Positions 47,911 to 60,780 of a stretch of 64,000 nt of DNA are shown piece after piece. Where the stretch lies: the NCBI RefSeq assembly GCF_000092865.1, contig NC_014151.1, positions 1,984,001-2,048,000 of the forward strand. The letters are read 5' to 3'. A model generated the notes under the pieces. It made no database searches. It had not been told where the DNA came from and was given only the letters and a program-made list of their open reading frames with translations. The DNA is from Cellulomonas flavigena DSM 20109. Its GTDB lineage: Bacteria; Actinomycetota; Actinomycetes; Actinomycetales; Cellulomonadaceae. Position numbers and translations under genes: made by a program. Positions within the stretch are counted from its first letter, which is position 1, and each line of letters opens with the position of its first letter.

Positions 47911-47940
47911 GCTTCAGACCGCGCCAGGATGTGCCGATGC
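47911..47940 (+). promoter_or_regulatory. Sigma-28-like promoter of pilB
   Basis: GCTTCAG (47911-47917), 16 bp, CCGATG (47934-47939), preceded by G. It is the most divergent of four identically spaced motifs in the pilus locus. Start codon of pilB is 47 bp further. Confidence 0.55.
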
Positions 47941-47986
47941 CTCCTCGGGTGCTGCTCCATGGTGCCCACGGACGAGGGAGGCACGG

Positions 47987-49660
47987 GTGAAGCAGCTCGG
48001 GGAGATCCTGCTCGACGAGGGGCTCGTCACGGAGGCGCAGCTCCTGGCGGCACTGGACGAACAGACCAGCCTGGGGACGTCGCTCGGGCGGACGCTCGTC
48101 GAGCTCGGCATCCTCACCGAGGCGCAGCTGGTCCGGGCGCTCGCCGCGCAGGTGGGCATGGAGTTCGTCGACCTCGACGAGTACCCGGTGGACCGGACCG
48201 CGGTCGCCCTGGTGCCCGGTGCCCTGTGCCGGCGGCACTCGGTGCTCCCGGTCGGTGTGCGCAACGGTGCGCTCGTGCTCGCCACGCCGGACCCGGGCAA
48301 CGTCGTCGCCGTCGACGACGTCCGCACGATCTCGGGCATGACCGTGATCTCGGTCGTCGCGACGCACGACAACGTCCTGCGAGCCATCGACCGGTACTGC
48401 CGGGCCGACGGCGAGATGGAGGACCTCACCAACGCCTTCGAGGAGTCGCAGGAAGCCGAGGTCGACCTCTCGGCACGCATGGGGGACGTCCTCGACGACG
48501 AGGCGCCGATCGTGCGGTTCGTCAACCTGCTGGTGACGCAGGCGATCACGGACCGCGCGTCGGACATCCACATCGAGCCCAGCGAGCACGACCTGCGCGT
48601 GCGCTACCGCATCGACGGTGTCCTGCACGAGACGCAGCGGGCGCCGAAGAACGTCACCGGCGGCGTCGTCAGCCGCGTGAAGATCATGAGCGACATCGAC
48701 ATCGCGGAGAAGCGCAAGCCGCAGGACGGCCGGATGTCGGTCATGCACAACGGGCGCAAGATCGACCTCCGTGTCGCGACCCTGCCGACGGTGTGGGGCG
48801 AGAAGATCGTCATGCGCATCCTCGACAACTCCACGGCGAGCCTGGACCTGCGTGACCTGTCGTTCCTCGAGCACAACTACGCGACGTACAAGGAGTCGTA
48901 CACCAAGCCGTACGGCATGATCCTCGTCACGGGGCCCACGGGTTCGGGGAAGTCCACGACGCTGTACGCGACGCTCAACGCCGTCTCCAAGCCGGACATC
49001 AACGTCATCACCGTCGAGGACCCGGTCGAGTACCGGCTCGCGGGCATCAACCAGGTGCAGGTGAACCCCAAGGCGGGTCTGACGTTCGCCGCGGCCCTGC
49101 GCTCGATCCTGCGTTCGGACCCCGACGTCGTGCTCCTCGGTGAGATCCGCGACCACGAGACCGCGCAGATCGCGGTCGAGGCCGCCCTCACCGGGCACCT
49201 CGTGCTCTCGACGCTGCACACGAACGACGCGCCCTCGGCGGTGACCCGCCTGACGGAGATGGGTATCGAGCCCTTCCTCGTGGGTTCGGCGCTCGACTGC
49301 GTGGTCGCGCAGCGGCTCGCGCGACGGCTCTGCCCGAAGTGCAAGGAGGCGTACCGCCCGACCCCGCGGGAGCTGGAGGCCGCGCGCTTCCCGTGGGTCG
49401 AGGGCGAGCAGCTCCCCGAGTTCTTCCGTCCGGCGGGGTGCGCGGCGTGCTCGCGCACCGGGTACAAGGGGCGCCTCGCGCTGCACGAGGTGATGCGGGT
49501 CACCGAGGACATCGAGCGTCACGCCGTCGCTCACTCGTCGTCGGCCGACATCGGGGCGACCGCGGTCAAGCAGGGGATGATCACGCTGCGCGACGACGGG
49601 TGGCAGAAGGTGGCGTCCGGCCTGACGTCGATCGAGGAGATCCTGCGCGTCGTGGCGTGA
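47987..49660 (+). CDS. pilB: Type IV pilus assembly ATPase PilB
   Basis: Hexameric GspE/PilB ATPase (557 aa) that powers pilus extension. N-terminal GspE-N domain (MKQLGEILLDEGLVTEAQLL), then RVSDIHIEP-type segment RASDIHIEPSEHDLRVRYRI, Walker A GPTGSGKST (316-324), Asp box, Walker B region VVLLGEIRDHETA, and a tetracysteine zinc site (CPKC ... CAAC). GTG start with GAGGGAGG upstream. First gene of the locus. Confidence 0.95.
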   Translation: MKQLGEILLDEGLVTEAQLLAALDEQTSLGTSLGRTLVELGILTEAQLVRALAAQVGMEFVDLDEYPVDRTAVALVPGALCRRHSVLPVGVRNGALVLATPDPGNVVAVDDVRTISGMTVISVVATHDNVLRAIDRYCRADGEMEDLTNAFEESQEAEVDLSARMGDVLDDEAPIVRFVNLLVTQAITDRASDIHIEPSEHDLRVRYRIDGVLHETQRAPKNVTGGVVSRVKIMSDIDIAEKRKPQDGRMSVMHNGRKIDLRVATLPTVWGEKIVMRILDNSTASLDLRDLSFLEHNYATYKESYTKPYGMILVTGPTGSGKSTTLYATLNAVSKPDINVITVEDPVEYRLAGINQVQVNPKAGLTFAAALRSILRSDPDVVLLGEIRDHETAQIAVEAALTGHLVLSTLHTNDAPSAVTRLTEMGIEPFLVGSALDCVVAQRLARRLCPKCKEAYRPTPRELEAARFPWVEGEQLPEFFRPAGCAACSRTGYKGRLALHEVMRVTEDIERHAVAHSSSADIGATAVKQGMITLRDDGWQKVASGLTSIEEILRVVA

Positions 49661-49677
49661 GCCCGTGCCGGCCGCCG

Positions 49678-49706
49678 CTCAAGTCGCGCGGCGCCCGTTC
49701 CGATGA
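49678..49706 (+). promoter_or_regulatory. Sigma-28-like promoter of pilT-pilC
   Basis: GCTCAAG (49677-49683), 16 bp, CCGATG (49700-49705). Same spacing as at pilA and pilM. It lies 17 bp after the pilB stop and leaves a leader of about 80 nt to the pilT GTG. Confidence 0.65.
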
Positions 49707-49790
49707 CACCAGGGGGCGCCCTCGGGTGGCCTCTGAGCGCGGCCGTCCCGACGACACCGCGGAGCAGCACGGACGCATGTGGAGGACGAC

Positions 49791-51278
49791 GTGACCGACG
49801 CCTACCCGGGGCCCACGAGCGGCGCGACGCGTCCGCTGCCCCCGTACCGCCCGGCCGGACCGCAGGCGGGGCCCGGCGGAGCACCGATGTTCAGCCCGGT
49901 GCCCTCGCAGAGCACCGCCGGCGCGCCGCCGGCGCCGCCACCCGCTCATGGCCCCGCAGTGCCCGGTCACGCCGCTCCTGCGCGCCACGCGCCGCCGCCC
50001 TCCGCACCGCCGAGGACGCCTGCAGGTGCCGTCCCGCCGCCGGCCCACGTGCCGGCGCAGCAACCGCCGCAGCCGCCGGCCGCGCGTCCGGCGGACGCCG
50101 CTCCCCGCCGCGCGCTGGGTCAGGAGTCCCAGGCGGGCGACATGCCGATCGACGAGGTCCTGCGGGAGATGGTGCGCCTCGGGGCGTCCGACGCGCACTT
50201 CACGACGGGCTCGCCGCCGATGGTGCGGCTCTCGGGCGCGCTGCAGCCCCTCGAGCAGTTCGGGCCGGTGATGCCCGACGGCCTGCGGCGCTCGCTCTAC
50301 GCGATCCTCACGCAGAAGCAGCGGGAGCGGTACGAGGAGGAGCTCGAGCTCGACGTCTCCTACGCGGTGCGGGGTCTGGCCCGGTTCCGCGTCAACGTCT
50401 ACCAGCAGCGGGAGTCGATCGGCGCGGCGTTCCGCGTGATCCCGTACGAGATCAAGCCGCTCGAGGAGCTCGGGGTGCCGGCCGTCGTGGGCACCTTCGC
50501 GGGGCTCCCGCGCGGGCTCGTCCTGGTGACGGGTCCGACCGGGTCGGGCAAGTCGACGACGCTCGCCTCGATCATCGACCTCGCGAACCGCACGCGTCAG
50601 GACCACATCATGACGGTGGAGGACCCGATCGAGTTCCTCCACCGCCACAAGAAGTCGCTGGTCAACCAGCGCGAGGTCGGTGCGGACACCCACTCGTTCG
50701 CGAACGCGCTCAAGCACGTCCTGCGCCAGGACCCCGACATCATCCTGGTCGGGGAGATGCGTGACCTGGAGACCATCAGCGTCGCGCTCACGGCGGCCGA
50801 GACGGGTCACCTGGTCTTCGCCACCCTGCACACGCAGGACGCCGCCCAGACGATCGACCGCGTCATCGACGTCTTCCCGTCGCACCAGCAGGCCCAGGTC
50901 CGTACGCAGCTGGCCGGCGCGATCCAGGCGGTCGTCTGCCAGACGCTGTGCAAGCGCGCGGACGGGCCGGGACGCGCCGTGGCGACCGAGGTGCTGGTGG
51001 CGACCCCCGCCATCCGCAACCTCATCCGCGAGGGCAAGACGCACCAGATCTACTCCTCCATGCAGGCCGGCGCGAAGCAGGGGATGCACACGATGGACCA
51101 GCACCTGGCGGACCTGGTGAAGCAGGGCAAGATCACCTACGAGGTGGGGCTCGAGAAGTCCCATCACGCCGAGGACTACAACCGGTTGACCGGGAGGTTC
51201 TCGGGGGCGTCGCAGGGCGCGGCCGGCATGGGTGACGAGGTCACGATGGGCTCCGGCTCGTACGGGCAGGCGTTCTGA
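49791..51278 (+). CDS. pilT: Pilus retraction ATPase PilT
   Basis: Retraction motor (495 aa). PilT domain from about residue 118 (MPIDEVLREMVRLGASDAHFTTGSPP), Walker A GPTGSGKST (248-256), VGEMRDLET (Walker B), HTQDAAQTIDRVIDVFP and the PilT-specific AIRNLIREGKTHQI. About 115 N-terminal residues are a Pro/Ala/Gly-rich disordered extension not found in typical PilT (about 350 aa). GTG 49791 chosen because GGAGG stands 5 bp upstream. Overlaps pilC by one base. Confidence 0.93.
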   Translation: MTDAYPGPTSGATRPLPPYRPAGPQAGPGGAPMFSPVPSQSTAGAPPAPPPAHGPAVPGHAAPARHAPPPSAPPRTPAGAVPPPAHVPAQQPPQPPAARPADAAPRRALGQESQAGDMPIDEVLREMVRLGASDAHFTTGSPPMVRLSGALQPLEQFGPVMPDGLRRSLYAILTQKQRERYEEELELDVSYAVRGLARFRVNVYQQRESIGAAFRVIPYEIKPLEELGVPAVVGTFAGLPRGLVLVTGPTGSGKSTTLASIIDLANRTRQDHIMTVEDPIEFLHRHKKSLVNQREVGADTHSFANALKHVLRQDPDIILVGEMRDLETISVALTAAETGHLVFATLHTQDAAQTIDRVIDVFPSHQQAQVRTQLAGAIQAVVCQTLCKRADGPGRAVATEVLVATPAIRNLIREGKTHQIYSSMQAGAKQGMHTMDQHLADLVKQGKITYEVGLEKSHHAEDYNRLTGRFSGASQGAAGMGDEVTMGSGSYGQAF

Positions 51279-52507
51279 TGGCCGCCGGGACGAAGACCTT
51301 CGAGTACGCGGTCCGTGACCGGTCGGGGAAGATCGTCAAGGGCCGCGTCGAGGCGAACAACCAGGCCGCCGTCGCCAACCGGCTGCGCGAGATGGGCCTT
51401 GCGGCCGTCTCGATCTCGGAGGTCTCCACGAGCGGCCTGCAGACCGAGTTCACGATCCCCGGGCTGTCCAACAGGATCTCCCTGAAGGACATCGCCATCA
51501 TGTCGCGCCAGCTGGCGACCATGATCGACTCCGGCCTGTCCCTGCTGCGCGCGCTGGCGATCCTCGTCGAGCAGACCGAGTCCAAGCCGCTCGCGAAGAT
51601 CCTGTCGCAGGTCCGCAACGACGTCGAGGTCGGGACCGCGTTCTCGACGGCGCTGGGCAAGCACCCGGAGACGTTCCCGCCGCTGATGGTCAACATGGTG
51701 CGCGCCGGCGAGGTCGGCGGCTTCCTCGACCAGACGCTCGTGTCCATCGCCGACAACTTCGAGACCGAGGTCCGGCTGCGGGCCAAGATCAAGTCCGCGA
51801 TGGCCTACCCCGTCATCGTCCTGGTGATCGCCGTCCTGGCCGTGGTGGGCATGCTGCTGTTCATCGTGCCGGTCTTCGCCGAGATGTTCGCCGGGCTCGG
51901 CGGCGAGCTGCCGGGGCCGACCAAGTTCCTCATGTTCCTGTCGGGCATGCTGAAGTGGACGATCGGTCCCACGGTCGTCCTGCTGGTGCTGGCGGGCGTG
52001 TGGTGGGGCAAGCACAAGAACGACAGGGCCCTGCGCGAGCGGATCGACCCGCTGAAGCTCAAGGTGCCGGTCTTCGGGCCGCTGTTCCGCAAGATCGCGG
52101 TGTCCCGGTTCACGCGCAACTTCGGGACGATGATCCACGCGGGCGTCCCGCTGCTCCAGGCCCTGGAGATCGTCGGCGAGGCCAGCGGGAACATCGTCAT
52201 CGAACGCGCGGCCAAGGCCGTGCAGGAGTCCGTGCGGCGCGGTGAGTCGCTGGCGGGGCCGCTGTCGCAGCACCCGGTCTTCCCGCCGATGGTCGTGCAG
52301 ATGATGGCGGTCGGTGAGGACACCGGCGCGCTGGACACCATGCTCGGGAAGGTCGCCGACTTCTACGACCAGGAGGTCGAGGCGATGACCGAGCAGCTCA
52401 CGAGCCTCATCGAGCCGCTCATGATCGTCGTCATCGGCGCGATCGTCGGCTTCATGGTGATCTCCATGTACATGCCGATCTTCGGCGTCTTCGACCTCAT
52501 CCAGTAG
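51278..52507 (+). CDS. pilC: Type IV pilus platform protein PilC
   Basis: Inner-membrane platform (409 aa) with two GspF domains (around 70-195 and 270-395), each ending in hydrophobic helices: AMAYPVIVLVIAVLAVVGMLLFIVPVF and LIEPLMIVVIGAIVGFMVISMYMPIF. FTRNFGTMIHAGVPLLQALEIV is the conserved second-domain motif. ATG overlaps the pilT stop (TGATG). Confidence 0.95.
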   Translation: MAAGTKTFEYAVRDRSGKIVKGRVEANNQAAVANRLREMGLAAVSISEVSTSGLQTEFTIPGLSNRISLKDIAIMSRQLATMIDSGLSLLRALAILVEQTESKPLAKILSQVRNDVEVGTAFSTALGKHPETFPPLMVNMVRAGEVGGFLDQTLVSIADNFETEVRLRAKIKSAMAYPVIVLVIAVLAVVGMLLFIVPVFAEMFAGLGGELPGPTKFLMFLSGMLKWTIGPTVVLLVLAGVWWGKHKNDRALRERIDPLKLKVPVFGPLFRKIAVSRFTRNFGTMIHAGVPLLQALEIVGEASGNIVIERAAKAVQESVRRGESLAGPLSQHPVFPPMVVQMMAVGEDTGALDTMLGKVADFYDQEVEAMTEQLTSLIEPLMIVVIGAIVGFMVISMYMPIFGVFDLIQ

Positions 52508-52553
52508 GAGTTGCTCCGGCCGGGTGAATCGCGCGGCGGACCGGGGCCGTCCG

Positions 52554-52582
52554 CTCAAGGCCACGCGCCGCACCGCCGATGT
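52554..52582 (+). promoter_or_regulatory. Sigma-28-like promoter of pilA
   Basis: GCTCAAG (52553-52559), 16 bp, CCGATG (52576-52581) preceded by G, giving a GCCGATG -10. About 98 bp upstream of the pilin ATG, so the mRNA has a long leader. Confidence 0.65.
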
Positions 52583-52600
52583 CACGGATGCAGTGATGAA

Positions 52601-52631
52601 CCGGCGTCCAGGTGCGCGAGCACCTCGCCGG
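52601..52631 (+). other. GNRA-capped hairpin in pilA leader
   Basis: CCGGCG-tcc-AGGTGC-GCGA-GCACCT-CGCCGG: two perfect 6-bp stems, a 3-nt bulge and a GCGA tetraloop, between the promoter and the pilin start. It could stabilise the abundant pilin mRNA or be part of a regulatory RNA. Confidence 0.6.
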
Positions 52632-52678
52632 CTGAGATCGACATTCCGACCGTTCACGCGTCCTCAGGAGCAACCACC

Positions 52679-53134
52679 ATGATCGCTCGTATCCGCAAGT
52701 CCATCGACGAGAAGGACCGGGGCTTCACCCTGATCGAGCTCCTCGTCGTCATGATCATCATCGGCATCCTCGCCGCGATCGCCATCCCGGTCTTCCTCAA
52801 CCAGCGGAAGAAGGCGGCGGAGACGTCGGCCAAGTCCGACGCGACCAACATCTCCAAGGACATCGCGGCCGCGTTCGTCGACAACCCGAACGCCGCCCTG
52901 GACCTGTCGATCGCGAACGGCGCCAACGCGACCGGCACGGCGACCATCACGGCGACGATCACGATGGGCACCGAGACGACCTCCGTGAAGGTCGGCCCGG
53001 GCAACACGGTCACGCTCGCGCCCGCGACCGGTGCGACCTCGACCACCTACTGCGTCACGGTGACGCCCGCGGAGGCGGGTGCCTCGGCGTGGAGCGCCGG
53101 CGGCAACGGCATCAAGAAGGGCACCACCTGCTGA
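52679..53134 (+). CDS. pilA: Type IV major pilin
   Basis: Prepilin of 151 aa with leader peptide MIARIRKSIDEKDRG cut before F16 and the class III hydrophobic helix FTLIELLVVMIIIGILAAIAIP; Glu5 of the mature protein is present. The small C-terminal domain is Ala/Thr-rich and ends with a cysteine that can pair with the one in TTYCVTV, giving the usual D-loop. ATG with CAGGAG upstream. Followed by a terminator, so it can be expressed far above the genes downstream. Confidence 0.93.
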   Translation: MIARIRKSIDEKDRGFTLIELLVVMIIIGILAAIAIPVFLNQRKKAAETSAKSDATNISKDIAAAFVDNPNAALDLSIANGANATGTATITATITMGTETTSVKVGPGNTVTLAPATGATSTTYCVTVTPAEAGASAWSAGGNGIKKGTTC

Positions 53135-53154
53135 CCAGGTAGCCCGAGCTGGAC

Positions 53155-53186
53155 GGCGGGGGGTGCGCTTGACCGCGCCCCCCGCC
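53155..53186 (+). terminator. Terminator after pilA
   Basis: 9-bp stem GGCGGGGGG / CCCCCCGCC with 14-nt loop, 21 bp after the pilin stop. Likely limits read-through into the minor-pilin genes. Confidence 0.7.
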
Positions 53187-53230
53187 GTTCGCGCTCCGCC
53201 CGCACGTCCCGTCCCTCGAAAGGTGGCCCG

Positions 53231-55009
53231 GTGGAGAGCCAGGAACGACCGCGTGACGACGCAGGCTTCACGCTCGTCGAGGTCATCATCGCGATGGTCA
53301 TCACCGTCGTCGTCATGATGACCCTCGCGGTGACCGTCGTCGGCGCGCTCACCACCGTGGCCCAGGCCCGGCAGCGCCAGACGGCGACGGCCCTGGCCAC
53401 GCAGGAGCTCGAGCGGCTGCGCGCCCAGCCGTACGACCGTGTCACGCAGCAGGACCCGGCCTACCCGGCCGTGACCGCCGCGTACGTCACCACCACCGCC
53501 GGCGTCGTGACGTTCGCGCCCCCGGCGCGGCTGCTCAGCGGCCCCGGGGAGCCGCTCGTGGTCAACGCGGTCTCCGGCAAGGCCGTGAACCAGGTGGTCG
53601 ACGGCATCACCTACACGGTCCAGACGTATGTCACGCGCCCGGCCCCCACGGCGTCGGGCTCCCAGCCCTTCAACCTCACGGTCGTCGTGAAGTGGACGAG
53701 CACCGTGCGGCCCGACGGGCGTGAGGTCGTGCAGCGCTCGACCACGTTCTCGCCCGCCGGCTGCCTGTCGACCGCGACGAGCCCCTTCGCCGCCCCCTGC
53801 CAGTCGTACTACACGATCCGCGCGGGGGAGTCCCTCGCCGGCCTGACGGTCAGCAGCGACGCCGGGCCCGATCAGCTCATCGCCGGCATGGACGCGCCCC
53901 AGCTGCGGCTCGACCTGACCCGGTCCTCCGCGAGCATCCTCGCCGAGCAGACCGTGAGCGGCACCTCCGCCGCGGAGACGTCGGGCGCCTCCAAGGCCTC
54001 GGCGACGACGACCGGGGGCGAGGCCGCGGGGGCCGCCGTCGACTCCGACCCGTCCTCGACGCCGCAGCAGTCGGTCTCCACCGCCACCGCCGGCAAGACC
54101 GCCTCGACACTCGCGGCCAGCGGCCCGGGCGGTGTGCTCGCGGTGCGGCCGTCGACCGCCGACTCCGGCGGCGCCCGCGCCGCGGTCGCGGCACCCTCGT
54201 CGATCTGCACCGGTGCTGCCGGCTCCGGGCTGGTCACGGGCGCGGCGGGCGCGGAGCGGCCGTGCGCGTCCTCCAACATCCAGGCGTCGGGCGGCGCGTC
54301 CGTCCTCACCTACACCTCACCGTCCGGCACAGCCGTGGAGCTGGCCTCGTTCGCGGCCGCCGGGACGTCGTCGCGTTCGGTCGCCGGGATCCTCGGGTCC
54401 GCGAACTCGGGCGTGTGCGCGTCGGGGTCGCCCGTGAACTGCGGGCACGCCGGCACCGCCCGGACACTGGGCGCGTCGATCGTCGGCGGGGCCGCCGTGA
54501 GCGCCGCACCGGCGGGCTTCACCGCGAGCCGCGGGCTGTTCTCCCTGTCCGGCCTCACCGAGTCGGCGCGTGCCGAGGAAGGGCCGTCGGCCCAGACGCC
54601 GTCGTACACGCGTGCCGGGACCCTGTGGGTCTGGGACGGGACCGGATACCAGACGGTGAACCTCGCGACGTTCGCGACGCCCGCGACGGGCGTCACACCG
54701 GTCGCACAGTCGTGGCAGATCCCCCCGACGGCCGTCACCTACGCCGGCGGCGTGACCCTCACGTACGAGGGCACGGTGACCGTGCAGCGGCCGCGCGTCG
54801 AGCGGTTCCCGGTCGTCCGCACGGGGAACGTCGCCGTGGACTGCAAGGCGGACGCCTGCACCACGTCGGTCGACGCGTCCGCGGCGGTCACCGCCAACGT
54901 CACCGTCGTGGTCACCGGTGCCACCGGCGAGCTCACGAGGTTCGCCCTCGCGGCGAACCTCGGCGGTCTCACCGCCGACTCCTCCTTCAAGGCGGCCGCC
55001 AATGCCTGA
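53231..55009 (+). CDS. Large prepilin-like protein (PilV position)
   Basis: A 592-residue protein with a type IV prepilin N-terminus: short leader ending DDAG, then FTLVEVIIAMVITVVVMMTLAVTVVGAL with Glu5. The first 180 residues resemble PilV-type minor pilins. Beyond residue about 225 is a long Ser/Ala/Thr/Gly-rich stretch, then beta-rich segments ending ADSSFKAAANA. This is about three times the size of usual minor pilins, and I recognise no domain in the C-terminal part. It may be a tip adhesin; inference. GTG start with AAAGGTGG upstream; overlaps the next gene by 8 bp. Confidence 0.8.
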   Translation: MESQERPRDDAGFTLVEVIIAMVITVVVMMTLAVTVVGALTTVAQARQRQTATALATQELERLRAQPYDRVTQQDPAYPAVTAAYVTTTAGVVTFAPPARLLSGPGEPLVVNAVSGKAVNQVVDGITYTVQTYVTRPAPTASGSQPFNLTVVVKWTSTVRPDGREVVQRSTTFSPAGCLSTATSPFAAPCQSYYTIRAGESLAGLTVSSDAGPDQLIAGMDAPQLRLDLTRSSASILAEQTVSGTSAAETSGASKASATTTGGEAAGAAVDSDPSSTPQQSVSTATAGKTASTLAASGPGGVLAVRPSTADSGGARAAVAAPSSICTGAAGSGLVTGAAGAERPCASSNIQASGGASVLTYTSPSGTAVELASFAAAGTSSRSVAGILGSANSGVCASGSPVNCGHAGTARTLGASIVGGAAVSAAPAGFTASRGLFSLSGLTESARAEEGPSAQTPSYTRAGTLWVWDGTGYQTVNLATFATPATGVTPVAQSWQIPPTAVTYAGGVTLTYEGTVTVQRPRVERFPVVRTGNVAVDCKADACTTSVDASAAVTANVTVVVTGATGELTRFALAANLGGLTADSSFKAAANA

Positions 55010-55664
55010 GATCCGACTCCGCCGTGCGCGTCCGCGCGGGGACCGCGGGACGTCGCTCGTCGAGCTGCTCGTCTCGATGACGCTGTTCGCCACCGCGATG
55101 GCCCTCATCATGGGCGCCGCCATCGAGGTGCTCCACGTCACCAAGGACGCCGAGGGTGCGGCCGCATCCGTGCAGAACACCCGCCAGGCCCTGGCGATGA
55201 TCGACCGGCAGGTCCGCTCCGGCAACGTCCTGTTCAGCCCGGCGGACGAGGCCCTGCACGTCTCCACGTGTCAGGACCTCGGGGCGCTGCAGGGCTCGTG
55301 CATGCGGATCTTCACGCAGTCGAACGGTTCCGAGAAGTGCGTCCAGTGGCAGGTCGCGCCGTCCGCCACCGGCGGGACGCACGAGCTGCGCATGCGCAGC
55401 TGGAGCCCCACCTGGCAGACCACCGGCGGCGTCTCGGACTGGGCGGTCGTCGCGCGCGGACTGCGCGAGCCGACGTCCACGTCGGCGCCGTTCGTGCTCG
55501 ACGTCGGCCCGGCCGGCATCTACGGCGAGCGGCTCCTGCGGGTGCACCTCGTCGCGATCAACGAGGCCTCCGGCAAGGACGTCTCGCTGGATGCGTCGAT
55601 CTCCGGGCGGAACACGACCTACGGCTACACCGGCAGCGAGTGCCTGCCGGTCCCGGCCGCCTGA
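55002..55664 (+). CDS. Minor prepilin-like protein (PilW position)
   Basis: A 220-residue protein: basic leader MPEIRLRRARPRGDRG, then TSLVELLVSMTLFATAMALIMGAAIEVL with Glu5 after cleavage at G16. The rest is a beta-rich pseudopilin head with cysteines in STCQDLGALQGSCM and SEKCVQW. Probably part of the tip complex that primes assembly. ATG inside the end of the preceding gene. Confidence 0.82.
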   Translation: MPEIRLRRARPRGDRGTSLVELLVSMTLFATAMALIMGAAIEVLHVTKDAEGAAASVQNTRQALAMIDRQVRSGNVLFSPADEALHVSTCQDLGALQGSCMRIFTQSNGSEKCVQWQVAPSATGGTHELRMRSWSPTWQTTGGVSDWAVVARGLREPTSTSAPFVLDVGPAGIYGERLLRVHLVAINEASGKDVSLDASISGRNTTYGYTGSECLPVPAA

Positions 55665-55683
55665 CGGTACGGAAGGGATGACC

Positions 55684-57270
55684 ATGGAGGCGATCCGTTC
55701 GCTCCTGCAGCGTGGGCGTGACGACCGTGGTGTGGCGCTCGTCGCCGCCATGGGTGTGGTCATGCTCGTGGGTGTGCTCGTCGCGGTCGCGATCTCGATC
55801 GCGTTGTCGGAGTCGCAGCAGACGGGCCGCGACCGGCAGCGGTCGTCGGGCGTGTCGCTCGCGGAGTCGAACGTCGACCTCACGCTCGCGCGCATCCAGT
55901 CCGCGCCCCCCGCCCAGCTCGGCAGCTCGCTGTGCGGGCCGAGCACCTCCACGGGCACGGTCGGTGGGGACGCGTACGAGGTCCAGACCACGATCACCTA
56001 CTACAACGCGGCCGGCGGCGTGATCCCGTGCGGCTCGGTGGCGACGGCGACCGTCTCGCAGGCCAAGGTGGTCACGCGCACGACGTCCGGGGCGGTCGCC
56101 GGCACGTCCGCGGCCCGCCGGCAGGTGGAGACGCTCCTGCGGCTGACGCCGGAGTTCGACAACAGCCTCGACAAGGCGATCTTCGCGGACTCCTCGCTCA
56201 TCATGTCCAACAAGACCGTCCTGGGCTCCAGCTCCGGCGCACCCGACGCCGACATCTACACCAACGGCGACTTCTACTGCCGGAACAACCAGGAGTTCGC
56301 CGGCTCGATCACCGCCCAGGGTGGCATCTACCTCGAGGGCCGCTGCCAGGTGGCGGTCGACGTGATCGCGAAGGGCGAGGTGAAGATCACCCAGTCGCAG
56401 GTCTCGGTCGGCGGGCAGGTGCAGTCGGCGACGAGCACGGTCGCGCTGGACAAGGCCTCCGTCGGTCAGCAGGCGCGTGCCGCCGGCACCGTCACGGGGG
56501 ACACCTGCGCCACACCGGGCAAGTGCGTGGGCAACCTCGGCGCCGGCGGTCTGACCCCGCCCAGCCCCATCGCGTTCCCGCAGCTGGTGTGGGACGCCGC
56601 GGCACAGGCCGGGTGGGCGGCGCACGGCTACACCAACGTCGTCACCTTCCCGCAGGGCAACTTCACGTGCGGCTGGTACAACCCGCCCGGCAACCAGGAG
56701 CTCGTCGGCCCCGACGGCCACGCGAAGAACCTCAACGGCAAGGCGAACGGCGTGGGCGCGTGGCTCTACGCCAACATGTACAAGCTGCCCGGGCCGACCG
56801 TCGTCGTCTCCGACTGCCCCAGCGACAAGATCATCCTCCAGGGCATCGGCATCACGCTGAACCACGACCTGATCCTGGTCTCGCGCGGCGGGATCACCTT
56901 CAGCGGCAACTCGCCGATCACCTCGGTGGCGGGCACCGGGACGGCCGACGACCCGAACCTCCTGTACTTCATCCAGCCCAAGTCGTACTACGGCACGCCG
57001 AAGACCTGCTCGGCGTGGGAGGAGGGCATCTCGCTCGACAACCAGGTGTCGGTCGACGCGACGGTCAACACCCTGCTCTACTCGCCGTGCGCCATCCGCA
57101 AGGCGAACCAGGCCACCCTCGTGGGGCAGGTGTACTCCGGTTCGACCCTGAGCGTCGACAACCAGCTCGACATGAAGTTCAAGCCCCTGCCGATCTGGGG
57201 AGGGCTGACCGCGACGGCGGGCGTGACGTCGTACTCTTCGGAGGTGCTCTACAAGCGCGAGTCGCAGTGA
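55684..57270 (+). CDS. PilX/GspK-position protein with beta-helix-like domain
   Basis: A 528-residue protein. N-terminus MEAIRSLLQRGRDDRG followed by VALVAAMGVVMLVGVLVAVAISIAL, a prepilin-like helix but with Ala instead of Glu at position 5, as in PilX/GspK-type tip subunits. After residue about 185 comes a run of short turns (DIYTNGDFYCRNNQEF, GSITAQGGIYLEGRC, VDVIAKGEVKITQ, VSVGGQVQSATSTV) that looks like a bactofilin-type right-handed beta-helix. ATG 55684 is chosen over 55678 because AAGGG is then 6 bp upstream. Overlaps pilD by GTGA. Confidence 0.78.
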   Translation: MEAIRSLLQRGRDDRGVALVAAMGVVMLVGVLVAVAISIALSESQQTGRDRQRSSGVSLAESNVDLTLARIQSAPPAQLGSSLCGPSTSTGTVGGDAYEVQTTITYYNAAGGVIPCGSVATATVSQAKVVTRTTSGAVAGTSAARRQVETLLRLTPEFDNSLDKAIFADSSLIMSNKTVLGSSSGAPDADIYTNGDFYCRNNQEFAGSITAQGGIYLEGRCQVAVDVIAKGEVKITQSQVSVGGQVQSATSTVALDKASVGQQARAAGTVTGDTCATPGKCVGNLGAGGLTPPSPIAFPQLVWDAAAQAGWAAHGYTNVVTFPQGNFTCGWYNPPGNQELVGPDGHAKNLNGKANGVGAWLYANMYKLPGPTVVVSDCPSDKIILQGIGITLNHDLILVSRGGITFSGNSPITSVAGTGTADDPNLLYFIQPKSYYGTPKTCSAWEEGISLDNQVSVDATVNTLLYSPCAIRKANQATLVGQVYSGSTLSVDNQLDMKFKPLPIWGGLTATAGVTSYSSEVLYKRESQ

Positions 57271-58094
57271 CCGCTCCCGACGCCCTGCTCAGCGGTGCGA
57301 CCGACCACCTGGCGGTGGTCCTCGCGCTGGTCGCCGGGGTCCTGGGTCTCGTCGTCGGGTCGTTCCTCAACGTGGTCGTGTGGCGCGTCCCGCGTGGCGA
57401 GTCGGTGGTCAGTCCGCCGAGCGCGTGCCCCCGCTGCGGCCACCGCGTCCGCGCCCGCGACAACGTGCCGGTGCTGTCCTGGCTCGCCCTGCGGGGACGG
57501 TGCCGCGACTGCGGTGAGCCGATCTCCCGGCGCTACCCGCTCGTCGAGCTCGTCACGGGGGTGCTGTTCGCGGTCACCGCGGGCGTCGTCGGCTGGTCGT
57601 GGTCGCTGCCGGCCGTCCTGTACCTGGTCGCGATCTCCGTGGCGCTCACGCTGATCGACCTCGACGTCAAGCGCCTGCCGGACAGGATCGTGCTGCCCGC
57701 CTACGTCGTCGCGCCGGTGCTGCTCGCGCTCGCGTCCTGGAACCCGGGCGGGCCGAGCGACTGGGGTGCGCTCGGCCGCGCGGCGGTGGGCTGCGTCGTG
57801 CTGTACGTCGTCTACTTCGTCCTCGTGCTGGTGTACCCCGCCGGCATGGGGTTCGGTGACGTGAAGCTCGCCGGTGTCCTGGGCCTGTACCTGGGCTGGG
57901 TGGGGTGGGGTGCGCTGGTCGTCGGCTGGTTCGCAGCCTTCCTGCTCGGTGGCGCGTTCGGGCTCGTGCTGATCGTGCTGCGACGGGTCGGTCCCAAGTC
58001 CGGCATCGCGTTCGGGCCGTGGATGATCCTCGGCGCGTTCGTCGGCCTCGCGGTGGGCGAGTCCCTCTGGTCGTCGTACCTCGGTCTGCTGTAG
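57267..58094 (+). CDS. pilD: Prepilin peptidase PilD
   Basis: Aspartic membrane protease (275 aa) that cleaves prepilin leaders and, in many species, N-methylates the new N-terminus. Zinc-type cysteines C54/C57 and C79/C82 (CPRC ... CRDC) mark the full-length form with the methylase domain. Catalytic aspartates lie in LIDLDVKRLPD (D131 or D133) and GFGD (D198). About seven hydrophobic helices. Last gene of the minor-pilin transcription unit. Confidence 0.94.
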   Translation: MTAPDALLSGATDHLAVVLALVAGVLGLVVGSFLNVVVWRVPRGESVVSPPSACPRCGHRVRARDNVPVLSWLALRGRCRDCGEPISRRYPLVELVTGVLFAVTAGVVGWSWSLPAVLYLVAISVALTLIDLDVKRLPDRIVLPAYVVAPVLLALASWNPGGPSDWGALGRAAVGCVVLYVVYFVLVLVYPAGMGFGDVKLAGVLGLYLGWVGWGALVVGWFAAFLLGGAFGLVLIVLRRVGPKSGIAFGPWMILGAFVGLAVGESLWSSYLGLL

Positions 58095-58132
58095 CCGGCG
58101 CCTTCGTCAGCGCGGTCCCGATCCGGTCCCGC

Positions 58133-58162
58133 GCTCAAGTCGGGCGTGGTGTCCGCCGATAG
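58133..58162 (+). promoter_or_regulatory. Sigma-28-like promoter of pilM-pilN-pilO
   Basis: GCTCAAG (58133-58139), 16 bp, CCGATAG (58156-58162) preceded by G: GCCGATAG, the best match to the sigma-28 -10 GCCGATAA in the set. 38 bp before the pilM GTG; GGAGGAAGG follows. Confidence 0.7.
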
Positions 58163-58200: not shown

Positions 58201-59265
58201 GTGGCCAGCACACGCGTCATCGGGCTCGACATCGGCGCGTCCGGCGTCCGGGCCGTCGAGCTGGAGTTCGGCAGTGGTGGACCGACCGGCAGGACGCCAC
58301 CGGTCCTGCACCGGTTCGGCCAGGTACCGCTGCCGCCCGGTGTGGTGCGCGACGGCGAGGTCGTGCAGCCCGAGACGGTCGCCACGGCGCTGCGTCAGCT
58401 GTGGAGCCACGCGAAGTTCGAGTCGAAGGACGTCGTCATCGGTGTCGGCAACCAGCGCGTGCTGGTCCGTGAGCTCGACCTGCCGTGGATGCCGCTGCCG
58501 CAGCTCAAGCAGTCGCTGCCGTTCCAGGTGGCCGAGATGCTGCCCATGTCGGCGGACGAGGCGCTGCTCGACTACTTCCCGACGGCGGAGTTCGACGGGC
58601 CCCAGGGGCGCACCGCGCGCGGGATGCTCGTCGCGGCGCAGCGCACGACGGTCAACGCGAACGTGCTCGCGGTCGAGGCGGCGGGCCTGCGGCCGGTGAT
58701 GGTCGACCTCAACGCGTTCGCGCTGCTGCGCGCGCTCGCACGCGGCGAGCTGTCGACGGTCAACGCGGCCTTCGTCGACATCGGGGCGACGATCACGAAC
58801 GTGACGATCTCCGAACAGGGTGTCCCGCGTCTGGTGCGGTCGCTGCCGTCCGGTGGTCAGAACGTGACCAACGCCGTGGCCAGCGCCCTGGGCGTCCCCG
58901 CGGGGGACGCCGAGCGGATCAAGCGCGAGACGGGCGTGGGCACGACCGGCGGTCCGCAGGGCGCCGAGGCGGCGGAGGCCGTCGCGTCGGTGGTGCGCAC
59001 CCTCGTCGAGTCGATCCGTAACACCTTCGTGTACTACGCCAGCAACAACCCGGGGTCGTCGGTGGCGCTGGTGGTGCTGACGGGCGGCGGCGCCGACCTG
59101 CCGGGCCTGGGGCAGTACCTGTCGTCCGCGAGCCGTGTGCCCGTGACCATGGGGGACCCCATCGCCGCGCTGCGTCCCGGCAAGTCGACACCGCGGGACG
59201 CCCTCCACGGGCAGCAGTCCGCCCTCGCCCTCGCCGTCGGTCTCGCGTCTGGAGTCGCCGCATGA
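58201..59265 (+). CDS. pilM: Type IV pilus assembly protein PilM
   Basis: Actin-like cytoplasmic ATPase (354 aa). The nucleotide-binding motifs VIGLDIGASGVRAVELE, FVDIGATITNVTIS and LVVLTGGGADLPGLGQYLS are in the expected order. It binds the N-terminal peptide of PilN and links the cytoplasmic motors to the membrane. GTG start with GGAGGAAGG upstream. Confidence 0.94.
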   Translation: MASTRVIGLDIGASGVRAVELEFGSGGPTGRTPPVLHRFGQVPLPPGVVRDGEVVQPETVATALRQLWSHAKFESKDVVIGVGNQRVLVRELDLPWMPLPQLKQSLPFQVAEMLPMSADEALLDYFPTAEFDGPQGRTARGMLVAAQRTTVNANVLAVEAAGLRPVMVDLNAFALLRALARGELSTVNAAFVDIGATITNVTISEQGVPRLVRSLPSGGQNVTNAVASALGVPAGDAERIKRETGVGTTGGPQGAEAAEAVASVVRTLVESIRNTFVYYASNNPGSSVALVVLTGGGADLPGLGQYLSSASRVPVTMGDPIAALRPGKSTPRDALHGQQSALALAVGLASGVAA

Positions 59266-59969
59266 GCACGCTGCTGGAGCGACCCAAGGGTCGCGGACGG
59301 GCCGGGTCCGGGACGGTGATCCCCGGCACCCTCCCGCAGGTCAACCTCCTGCCGCCGGAGGTCCGCGCCGCGCGCAACCTCCGGACCACCAAGCGGTGGC
59401 TGCTGGTGAGCCTCGGGCTGACGGTGGTGGCGTGCGCCGTCGCCTTCGGGCTGTCGCTGCTGGCGAGCGCGACCGCCGCGACGGAGCTCGCCGAGGCCCA
59501 GGACGAGACGGCGCGGCTGCAGGCCGAGCAGCTCCAGTACGCCGAGGTGCCGCTCGTGCTCGGGATGCTGCAGCAGACCGAGGCCGCCCGCGAGCTCGGC
59601 ATGTCGACGGAGATCCCGTGGAAGGCGTACGTCGACGCCTTCGGGAGCGTCCTGCCCCCCGGGGTGAGCGTGGAGTCGCTGACGGTGACGCAGGCGACGC
59701 CGATGGCGGTCGGTCCGGCCGCGCCGGACGTGCTGCGCGAGGCGGGCATCGGCCAGATCAGGTTCGAGGGCCGTGCGGTGACACTGCCCGACGTGGCCGC
59801 CTGGATCGAGGCGCTCGACTCCGTGCCCGGCTTCACCGACGCGTCGGTCGAGGCGGTGCAGGGCAGCGAGGAGGTGGACTCCGGGGTGTTCTACCAGATC
59901 ACGACGACCGTTCAGGTGACGCAGGAGGCCTACGCCGACCGCTTCGCCCCGACCGACGGGGAGGGCTGA
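59262..59969 (+). CDS. pilN: Type IV pilus assembly protein PilN
   Basis: Bitopic membrane protein (235 aa). The PilM-binding peptide VNLLPPEV (about residues 28-35) precedes one TM (WLLVSLGLTVVACAVAFGLSLLAS) and a coiled-coil plus alpha/beta extracytoplasmic domain. ATGA overlap with pilM. Confidence 0.9.
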   Translation: MSTLLERPKGRGRAGSGTVIPGTLPQVNLLPPEVRAARNLRTTKRWLLVSLGLTVVACAVAFGLSLLASATAATELAEAQDETARLQAEQLQYAEVPLVLGMLQQTEAARELGMSTEIPWKAYVDAFGSVLPPGVSVESLTVTQATPMAVGPAAPDVLREAGIGQIRFEGRAVTLPDVAAWIEALDSVPGFTDASVEAVQGSEEVDSGVFYQITTTVQVTQEAYADRFAPTDGEG

Positions 59970-59970
59970 G

Positions 59971-60780
59971 ATGTCCGAGTCCAAGAACCGCACCTGGATC
60001 CTGGGGACGGTGCTCGTCGCGCTCGTGATGGGTGCCCTGACCTGGTTCTTCGGGGTCTCCCCGACGCTGGCGGCGGCCTCCGACCTGCGCGACCAGACGG
60101 ACGACGCACGCGCGCAGAACGACGTGCTCGAGCTCCAGCTCGTCCAGCTGCGGGCGGACTTCGAGAAGCTGCCGGAGCACCGCGCGACCCTCGAGTCCCT
60201 GCGCACGCAGATCCCGACGTCCCCGGCGCTGGCCCCGTACCTGCGTGAGCTCGAGGCGATCGCGACGGGCAAGGGGGTCGCGCTCACGACGTTCACGCCG
60301 TCGCCCGCGGCCGAGGTGGTGCTGGCACAACCGGTCGTTCCGGCCGCACCGGCCGCACCGGTGGACGCGACGGCCGACGCGACCGAGCCGGCGGCGCAGG
60401 GTGACGCCACAGCGGCTCCGGCCGCACCGGCCGCACCGGCGGGGCCGACGGTGCCGGCGGGCATGGCCGCTGTCCCGGTGTCCCTGACGGTCGTCGGGAC
60501 GTACGACGCCGCCACGGGGTTCGTGTCGGACCTCCAGTCGCTCACGCAGCGCCTGTTCCTCGTCTCGGGACTCAGCGTCACCGGTCAGGACGAGGCCGAG
60601 CCGTCGGCGGGGCGCCCCGCGACCCAGGTCGGGGACGTCGAGATCGTCGTCACCGGCTACCTCTACGTGCTGCCCGAGCCGGCCGGGGTCGTCGTCCCCG
60701 CGGACCCTGCCGAGCCGCCGGCCGCGCTGCCGGGTGCCGTCCCGGGCAAGAACCCGTTCGTGCCCGTCCAGGGCGTCTGA
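59971..60780 (+). CDS. pilO: Type IV pilus assembly protein PilO
   Basis: Bitopic membrane protein (269 aa): one N-terminal TM ([22 protein letters not shown]), a coiled coil (about 30-75) and a ferredoxin-like C-terminal domain. An Ala/Pro-rich segment (about residues 112-165, with [11 protein letters not shown] runs) interrupts the extracytoplasmic domain, unusual for PilO. It forms the alignment subcomplex with PilN. No PilP or secretin gene follows, as expected for a single-membrane cell. Confidence 0.88.

Follow-up and report, generated by a model that had tools for sequence, protein, structure and literature searches.

Predicted WhiG-type promoters across the type IV pilus locus of Cellulomonas flavigena and its relatives

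In the unicellular, non-sporulating Rubrobacter radiotolerans, a switch made of the sigma factor WhiG, its anti-sigma factor RsiG and cyclic diguanosine monophosphate (c-di-GMP) acts on type IV pili: according to the account in PMC8325347, 3 of 12 WhiG-type promoters with mapped start sites sit in the pil cluster, five precede c-di-GMP enzymes, and GCCGATR is the known -10 of the WhiG/FliA sigma class. In Actinoplanes missouriensis, the pilus and flagellar genes of the zoospores are placed under WhiG-like flagellar sigma factors in the accounts given by PMC8325347 and PMC13293333. A review notes that what WhiG does in the motility of motile simple actinobacteria had not been analysed (PMC4255298). 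The 2021 survey, as its text describes it, located RsiG for the most part in Streptomycetaceae, Geodermatophilaceae and Pseudonocardiaceae and in a few isolated instances outside them, fourteen poorly aligning sequences having been removed (PMC8325347). In the open-licence literature on WhiG, RsiG and Cellulomonas type IV pili we found no account of a WhiG-type pilus regulon in Cellulomonas. The present study concerns the type IV pilus locus of the soil bacterium Cellulomonas flavigena DSM 20109, analyzed within a window of 64 kb (the whole stretch from 1,984,001 to 2,048,000 of contig NC_014151.1), and suggests, with a probability that we put at about 0.83, that four promoter-like motifs in this locus are read by RNA polymerase carrying WhiG, which would turn on four pilus units together as a small regulon for the timing of pilus formation and attachment.

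The motif, GCTYMAG-N16-CCGATR, stands on the + strand upstream of pilB, pilT, pilA and pilM (47911-47939, 49677-49705, 52553-52581 and 58133-58161), with N16 between its halves in all four cases. The preliminary description had claimed this placement, the identical spacing and the absence of further copies from the window, and all three hold, coordinates and strand included, the four sites being the sole exact matches in 64 kb. When up to two mismatches are allowed the window contains 13 matches against 7.5 expected, a count reached by 3 of 100 shuffles, and with so modest an excess the strength of the signal within the window rests on the four exact sites. Genome-wide (4,123,179 bases) there are eight exact matches, including these four, and the pattern read backwards gives none, so that the motif does not occur at random frequency. 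The -10 half, CCGATR, is present at all four sites, is preceded by G at three of them and fits the sigma-28-class -10 GCCGATAA. The stricter form proposed earlier, TCAAG-N15-GCCGATR, is true of two sites only, since 49677 has TCCGATG and 47911 has GCTTCAG; moreover, the distance from TCA to CCGAT is 17 at the pilB site, one base tighter than the 18 of the other three. It is very probable that a sigma-28-family factor uses the four motifs as promoters. The locus reads as follows.

47911-47939, + strand: predicted WhiG-type promoter of pilB, GCTTCAG-N16-CCGATG, 47 nucleotides upstream of the start codon
47987-49660, + strand: pilB, extension ATPase whose N-terminus holds a c-di-GMP-binding domain of the MshEN type; TIGR02538 648.8 bits, just under the cut-off of 675.65
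49677-49705, + strand: predicted WhiG-type promoter of pilT-pilC, GCTCAAG-N16-CCGATG
49779-51278, + strand: pilT, retraction ATPase; TIGR01420 492.9 bits, over the cut-off
51278-52507, + strand: pilC, platform protein of the inner membrane, sharing one base with pilT; 416 and 402 bits with the NCBIfam PilC models, under the cut-offs of 700
52553-52581, + strand: predicted WhiG-type promoter of pilA, GCTCAAG-N16-CCGATG, 97 nucleotides upstream of the start codon
52679-53134, + strand: pilA, major pilin; prepilin domain TIGR02532 39.3 bits, over the cut-off
53231-57270, + strand: three open frames (53231-55009, 54918-55664 and 55591-57270) assigned to minor pilins or pilus proteins; PF07963
57285-58094, + strand: pilD, prepilin peptidase; PF06750 and PF01478 over cut-off
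58133-58161, + strand: predicted WhiG-type promoter of pilM-pilN-pilO, GCTCAAG-N16-CCGATA, 39 nucleotides upstream of the start codon
58201-59265, + strand: pilM; TIGR01175 176 bits, over the cut-off
59262-59969 and 59971-60780, + strand: pilN and pilO; PF05137 and PF04350 over cut-off

The names first given to the genes behind the motifs stand, with the PilT family and PilM over their NCBIfam cut-offs, PilA recognized by its prepilin domain and PilB slightly below its cut-off. The likelier start of pilT, judging by a GGAGG upstream, is the GTG at 49791. PF07963 is over its cut-off in the first of the three open frames and below it in the second, and no family matched the third. The N-terminus of PilB carries a c-di-GMP motif (NF053729, 62.7 bits with a cut-off of 38) and the PF05157 MshEN domain (71.6 bits, cut-off 23.1), so c-di-GMP may act directly on the pilus motor. 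In four related loci (L022, L026, L027 and L028) the best minor-pilin matches lie about 4-6 kb from the pilC end rather than immediately behind pilA, a placement suggestive of additional or duplicated cassettes of pilin genes.

What lifts the motif far above chance is its conservation in related loci, where the spacers have diverged. Relatives of PilC define 42 loci, nearly all from Cellulomonas, Actinotalea and their neighbours; in 36 of these (Cellulomonas, Actinotalea and near relatives) the 200 bases upstream of each gene were searched for CTCA-N18-CCGATR, no more than one mismatch being allowed. It was found before pilB in 22 of 32 loci, pilT in 28 of 32, pilA in 23 of 36 and pilM in 29 of 31, and the bases between its halves vary from locus to locus. 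For the same four genes the shuffle means were 0.2-0.3 (maximum 2-3), the reverse complement gave 0, 1, 0 and 1 matches, and ten alternative spacings gave 0-7. No match at the N18 spacing was present in 105 control upstream regions (mltG 0/17, aroE 0/29, aroC 0/25, pilN 0/17, pilD 0/17), which yielded three matches altogether at other spacings. Several of the pilB loci that fail the strict form have CTTCAG or CTACAG, resembling the pilB site of the window. The six loci kept separate extend the picture outward: a Demequina locus had no match at any of the four genes and one match at a neighbouring spacing before pilT, and those of Cryobacterium, Leucobacter and a Pseudomonadota contig had the motif before pilB in 1 of 1, pilT in 0 of 3, pilA in 0 of 5 and pilM in 0 of 4. 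The position of the sites relative to genes is also informative. Among 113 distinct exact sites from this genome and its relatives, which include orthologues and hence are not independent, an ATG or GTG lies 8 nucleotides past CCGATR in 25, compared with 14, 11 and 4 at 6, 7 and 9 nucleotides and an average of 3.3 for each position from 15 to 39; such a peak would be the pattern expected of leaderless transcripts that begin at the start codon. In the pilus units themselves, 39-97 nucleotides separate the -10 from the start codon.

As the preliminary description had anticipated, the genome contains a sigma-28-family gene. A single gene, at G000:C1:1644458-1645369, exceeds the FliA/WhiG cut-off (TIGR02479, 260 bits vs 189.6), and by its scores it is of the WhiG rather than the FliA type: against solved structures (PDB) it gives 290 bits with the WhiG chains of Streptomyces venezuelae and 161 with FliA, and among NCBIfam models the best-scoring is WhiG (NF004935, 331.2 bits, under that model's cut-off of 343), with FliA at 226. 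It adjoins xerC-like and rpsB genes, as does its counterpart in relatives (xerC in 30 of 30 and rpsB in 29 of 30; loci L064-L093, representing 30 of the 48 further genomes of the family that have the sigma), and in none of these 30 genomes does it lie within 1.5 kb of flagellin. Across 101 genomes of the family, 49 have a WhiG-type sigma, 46 have flagellin and 50 have a PilM match. The exact motif is present in 47 of the 49 genomes with the sigma (209 sites, control 2) vs 16 of the 52 without it (21 sites, control 10), and PilM in 47 of 49 vs 3 of 52; these patterns are clade-structured, so that Fisher and rank values overstate independence.

If flagellar FliA read the sites instead, pili and flagella would belong to one programme, and the preliminary description had indeed proposed that swimming and twitching or attachment are a single programme. 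FliA and WhiG share one promoter class, and a similar site, (C/T)TCA-N16/17-nSGAT, stands upstream of flagellin in 9 of 10 loci of relatives (L094-L103), shorter by one or two bases than the pilus form, and the window's pilB site shares this spacing; in L100 and L102 its -35 is the same CTCAAG. The exact pilus motif, however, precedes flagellin in none of the 10 loci, where another -10 is often found, and with these differences in spacing and -10 the flagellin and pilus promoter types are related, not the same. It may be by their spacing that targets of FliA and of WhiG are told apart, and in flagellated relatives the two factors may overlap to some extent. Flagellated relatives have a second sigma, 32-36% identical to the WhiG of C. 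flavigena and adjoining flagellin in 8 of the 10 flagellin loci examined, whose PDB scores (WhiG 108, FliA 99) do not separate the two types. Neither this flagellin-linked sigma nor flagellin itself (Pfam PF00669, the one flagellar gene searched for) was found in the C. flavigena genome, and strain 134T is described as non-motile and non-sporulating in the text of PMC3035266. The motif, too, follows WhiG: it occurs in 38 of 39 genomes with both WhiG and flagellin and 9 of 10 with WhiG only, vs 1 of 7 with flagellin only, and in 15 of 45 with neither (18 sites vs 10 in the control). We therefore consider it very unlikely that FliA reads the sites, and with flagellin not found a shared flagellar programme in C. 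flavigena is not supported. What survives of the earlier proposal of a flagellar or developmental sigma is that sigma-28-family promoters are very probable and that the sigma gene is present; its flagellar part is not supported, and the genome-wide search it had called for returned a sigma gene and a non-random motif, with no flagellin gene found to carry it.

A different possibility is that the motif binds an activator or repressor of the pilus genes rather than a sigma factor. In its favour, known sigma-28 promoters have TAAA where the -35 half here is CTCAAG, a longer and more rigid sequence, and a single spacing is kept between the halves. This we judge unlikely, in that GCCGATR is given as the known -10 of this sigma class in the text of PMC8325347, the start-codon peak at +8 would mark the beginning of transcripts, and the presence of the motif tracks the sigma gene. 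As for coincidence in a GC-rich genome, with the sites picked by eye, the two-mismatch count in the window does exceed that of the shuffles by only a modest margin, and to this extent chance has something in its favour; the eight exact matches genome-wide against none for the reversed pattern, and the conservation footprint at the same positions in dozens of related loci, lead us to reject it outright. The reading by WhiG is preferred because motif counts, conservation, the identity of the sigma by score, co-occurrence, start-codon geometry, the spacing difference from flagellin sites and the Rubrobacter precedent all point to it.

Several observations nevertheless weigh against WhiG as the reader of these sites. 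The class -35, TAAA, is not present at any of the four window sites, which have CTCAAG or, at pilB, TTCAG; CTCAAG would work like TAAA, as a lineage-specific -35. The pilB site has the tighter spacing of flagellin genes, and the strict form is absent at 10 of 32 pilB, 4 of 32 pilT, 13 of 36 pilA and 2 of 31 pilM loci. The sigma itself scores under the cut-off of the WhiG model. In the family survey, G015 is flagellated and without a WhiG-type sigma, yet has three exact sites (it is the one flagellin-only genome with the motif), whereas G012 and G004 have the sigma and no exact site. Sigma, motif and pili have a common clade history, so that their co-occurrence is partly phylogenetic. Finally, a 1984 report of flagella in C. 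flavigena is cited in PMC3035266.

Four exact sites lie outside the window. One, at C1:1356532, is followed by a second PilT-family ATPase, unlinked to the pilus locus (TIGR01420, 439 bits), and another, at C1:1922798, precedes a 177-residue LuxR-type regulator (PF00196, 60 bits) whose neighbours we take, from their sequences, to be DUF3000-like and RNase D-like genes; with the motif before these genes as well, a small pilus regulon is suggested. The site at C1:626022 precedes a gene without assigned role and that at C1:1180422 no convincing gene. In relatives, where 82 loci, mostly outside the pilus locus, were examined and 73 downstream proteins tallied, this LuxR-type regulator (17) and the second PilT (9) recur, followed by BldC-like (4) and RsiG-like (2) proteins, PilA (1) and PilM (1), and 39 fall into no recurrent class. 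BldC is a developmental gene of Streptomyces; its likeness stands behind the motif in four genomes of genus g9 (L164, L172, L178 and L182, from G066, G099, G008 and G079, respectively), one of the four proteins being confirmed by NCBIfam. In three g9 genomes (L167, L174 and L179) the motif lies 8 nucleotides before the GTG start of a membrane protein encoded some 10 kb away from pilM. In C. flavigena itself the motif, or a site resembling it, lies 8 nucleotides before the ATG of both genes at C1:626022 and 636295 (L001 and L016), which are ten kb apart and presumably DUF3806-like, and a gene of similar sequence in G041 (L194) has the motif as well.

A candidate partner of the sigma is also encoded in the genome.

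G000:C1:3440045-3440455: RsiG-like protein gene

A small, divergent homologue of RsiG seems to travel with WhiG in the Cellulomonas family, as the protein is present in 46 of the 49 WhiG genomes (all except G012, G070 and G076) and none of the 52 others. The Pfam RsiG family, PF22802, matches 29 of 32 members at an expectation value (E) of 1 or less (best 2.3e-8; 0.0011 for the C. flavigena protein), and since the latter gives 19 and 21.9 bits, under the gathering score of 27, it is named RsiG-like only. Over the 101 genomes, PF22802 at E <=0.01 finds 38, of which 33 on the RsiG-like gene (8 over cut-off) and 5 weakly elsewhere; the strongest score is 36 bits, vs 87-112 for RsiG of other families. 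When compared as profiles by hhalign with 29 RsiG proteins (chosen for carrying the exact motif, one of 30 having been dropped), the RsiG-like proteins gave a probability of 74% and, for a single comparison, E 2.9e-5, and 20 column-shuffled controls gave at most 2.1%. RsiG proteins are antiparallel two-helix coiled coils; the predicted model of the RsiG-like protein has two long helices (8-43 and 87-121) with a loop (predicted local distance difference test score 87.8), and the top two Foldseek matches, non-significant at E 0.7 and 1.1, are the RsiG chains of the S. venezuelae complex. The repeats of the c-di-GMP signature, E(X)3S(X)2R(X)3Q(X)3D, are not intact in the 46 RsiG-like proteins: in the first repeat R is kept in 44 and D in 40, compared with E in 0, S in 4 and Q in 4, and the second is degenerate (E 24, R 18, D 17, Q 0, S gapped) in a region of uncertain alignment. 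Upstream of the gene, CTCAAG-N16-[CT]CGA is found in 36 of 45 cases (0-1 at 16 other spacings, 0.02 in shuffles), mostly with an altered -10, as CCGATR occurs in 4 of the 36 and the commonest forms are CCGAAA (8) and CCGACA (5). The C. flavigena gene is among the nine misses, its upstream region reading GTCAAG-N16-CCGAAC.

RNA polymerase carrying WhiG would thus read the four motifs and activate jointly pilB; pilT and pilC; pilA, the minor pilins and pilD; and pilM, pilN and pilO, if the predicted boundaries of these units are right, and together with them the second pilT and the LuxR-type regulator. In a non-sporulating cell without detected flagellin, WhiG would time pilus assembly and attachment rather than swimming or sporulation. 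Less surely, the RsiG-like protein, whose gene in most relatives follows a promoter motif of related form, may restrain WhiG and so close a feedback loop, and c-di-GMP may enter through the MshEN domain of PilB. One tentative extension, possible but not one that we favour, is that the WhiG switch has been rewired: an RsiG without most of its c-di-GMP signature, made from a WhiG-type promoter, would be a negative-feedback brake on the pilus regulon, independent of c-di-GMP or differently gated, with control by c-di-GMP moved to PilB. A divergent RsiG of this kind would allow one to ask how an anti-sigma factor changes as its second-messenger site decays.

What WhiG does in simple actinobacteria has, in the sources cited here, been answered for Rubrobacter and, for FliA-family sigma factors, Actinoplanes; the Cellulomonas family, which is large and has many cultured members, points to pili, and since its type strain 134T is described as non-motile, that role can be held apart from swimming and from sporulation. 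New here would be a WhiG-type pilus regulon in this family, including the second pilT and the LuxR-type regulator, and beside it the small divergent RsiG homologue. In Streptomyces, WhiG and RsiG form a sporulation switch (PMC8325347; PMC4255298, as described there), and it is for spore formation that WhiG is best known; the Cellulomonas sigma is the same by score, with pilus formation, not sporulation, as its predicted target. The WhiG-type promoter before a LuxR-type gene recalls Streptomyces whiI as a likeness only, WhiI being described in the text of PMC4255298 as absent from simple, motile actinobacteria that have WhiG. With Actinoplanes, Cellulomonas would share the use of FliA/WhiG-family sigmas to direct pil genes; Actinoplanes, however, is described as having flagellated zoospores, three FliA-family sigmas and no RsiG, whereas in C. 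flavigena flagellin was not found and one such sigma is over the cut-off. By analogy, the WhiG of Rubrobacter and the FliA of Actinoplanes are precedents for control of pili by the sigma-28 family. Rubrobacter and Cellulomonas have in common a WhiG sigma, flagellar-class promoters before several pil units, an RsiG-type protein and a unicellular, non-sporulating host. They differ in the -35, TAAA in the former and CTCAAG in the latter, and in their start sites, mapped in the one and predicted from sequence in the other. Moreover, Rubrobacter RsiG is a single-motif homodimer with its c-di-GMP residues intact, whereas the Cellulomonas RsiG-like protein has two predicted helices and a broken signature, and, unlike in Rubrobacter, a sequence related to the pilus motif precedes the RsiG-like gene itself in most relatives.

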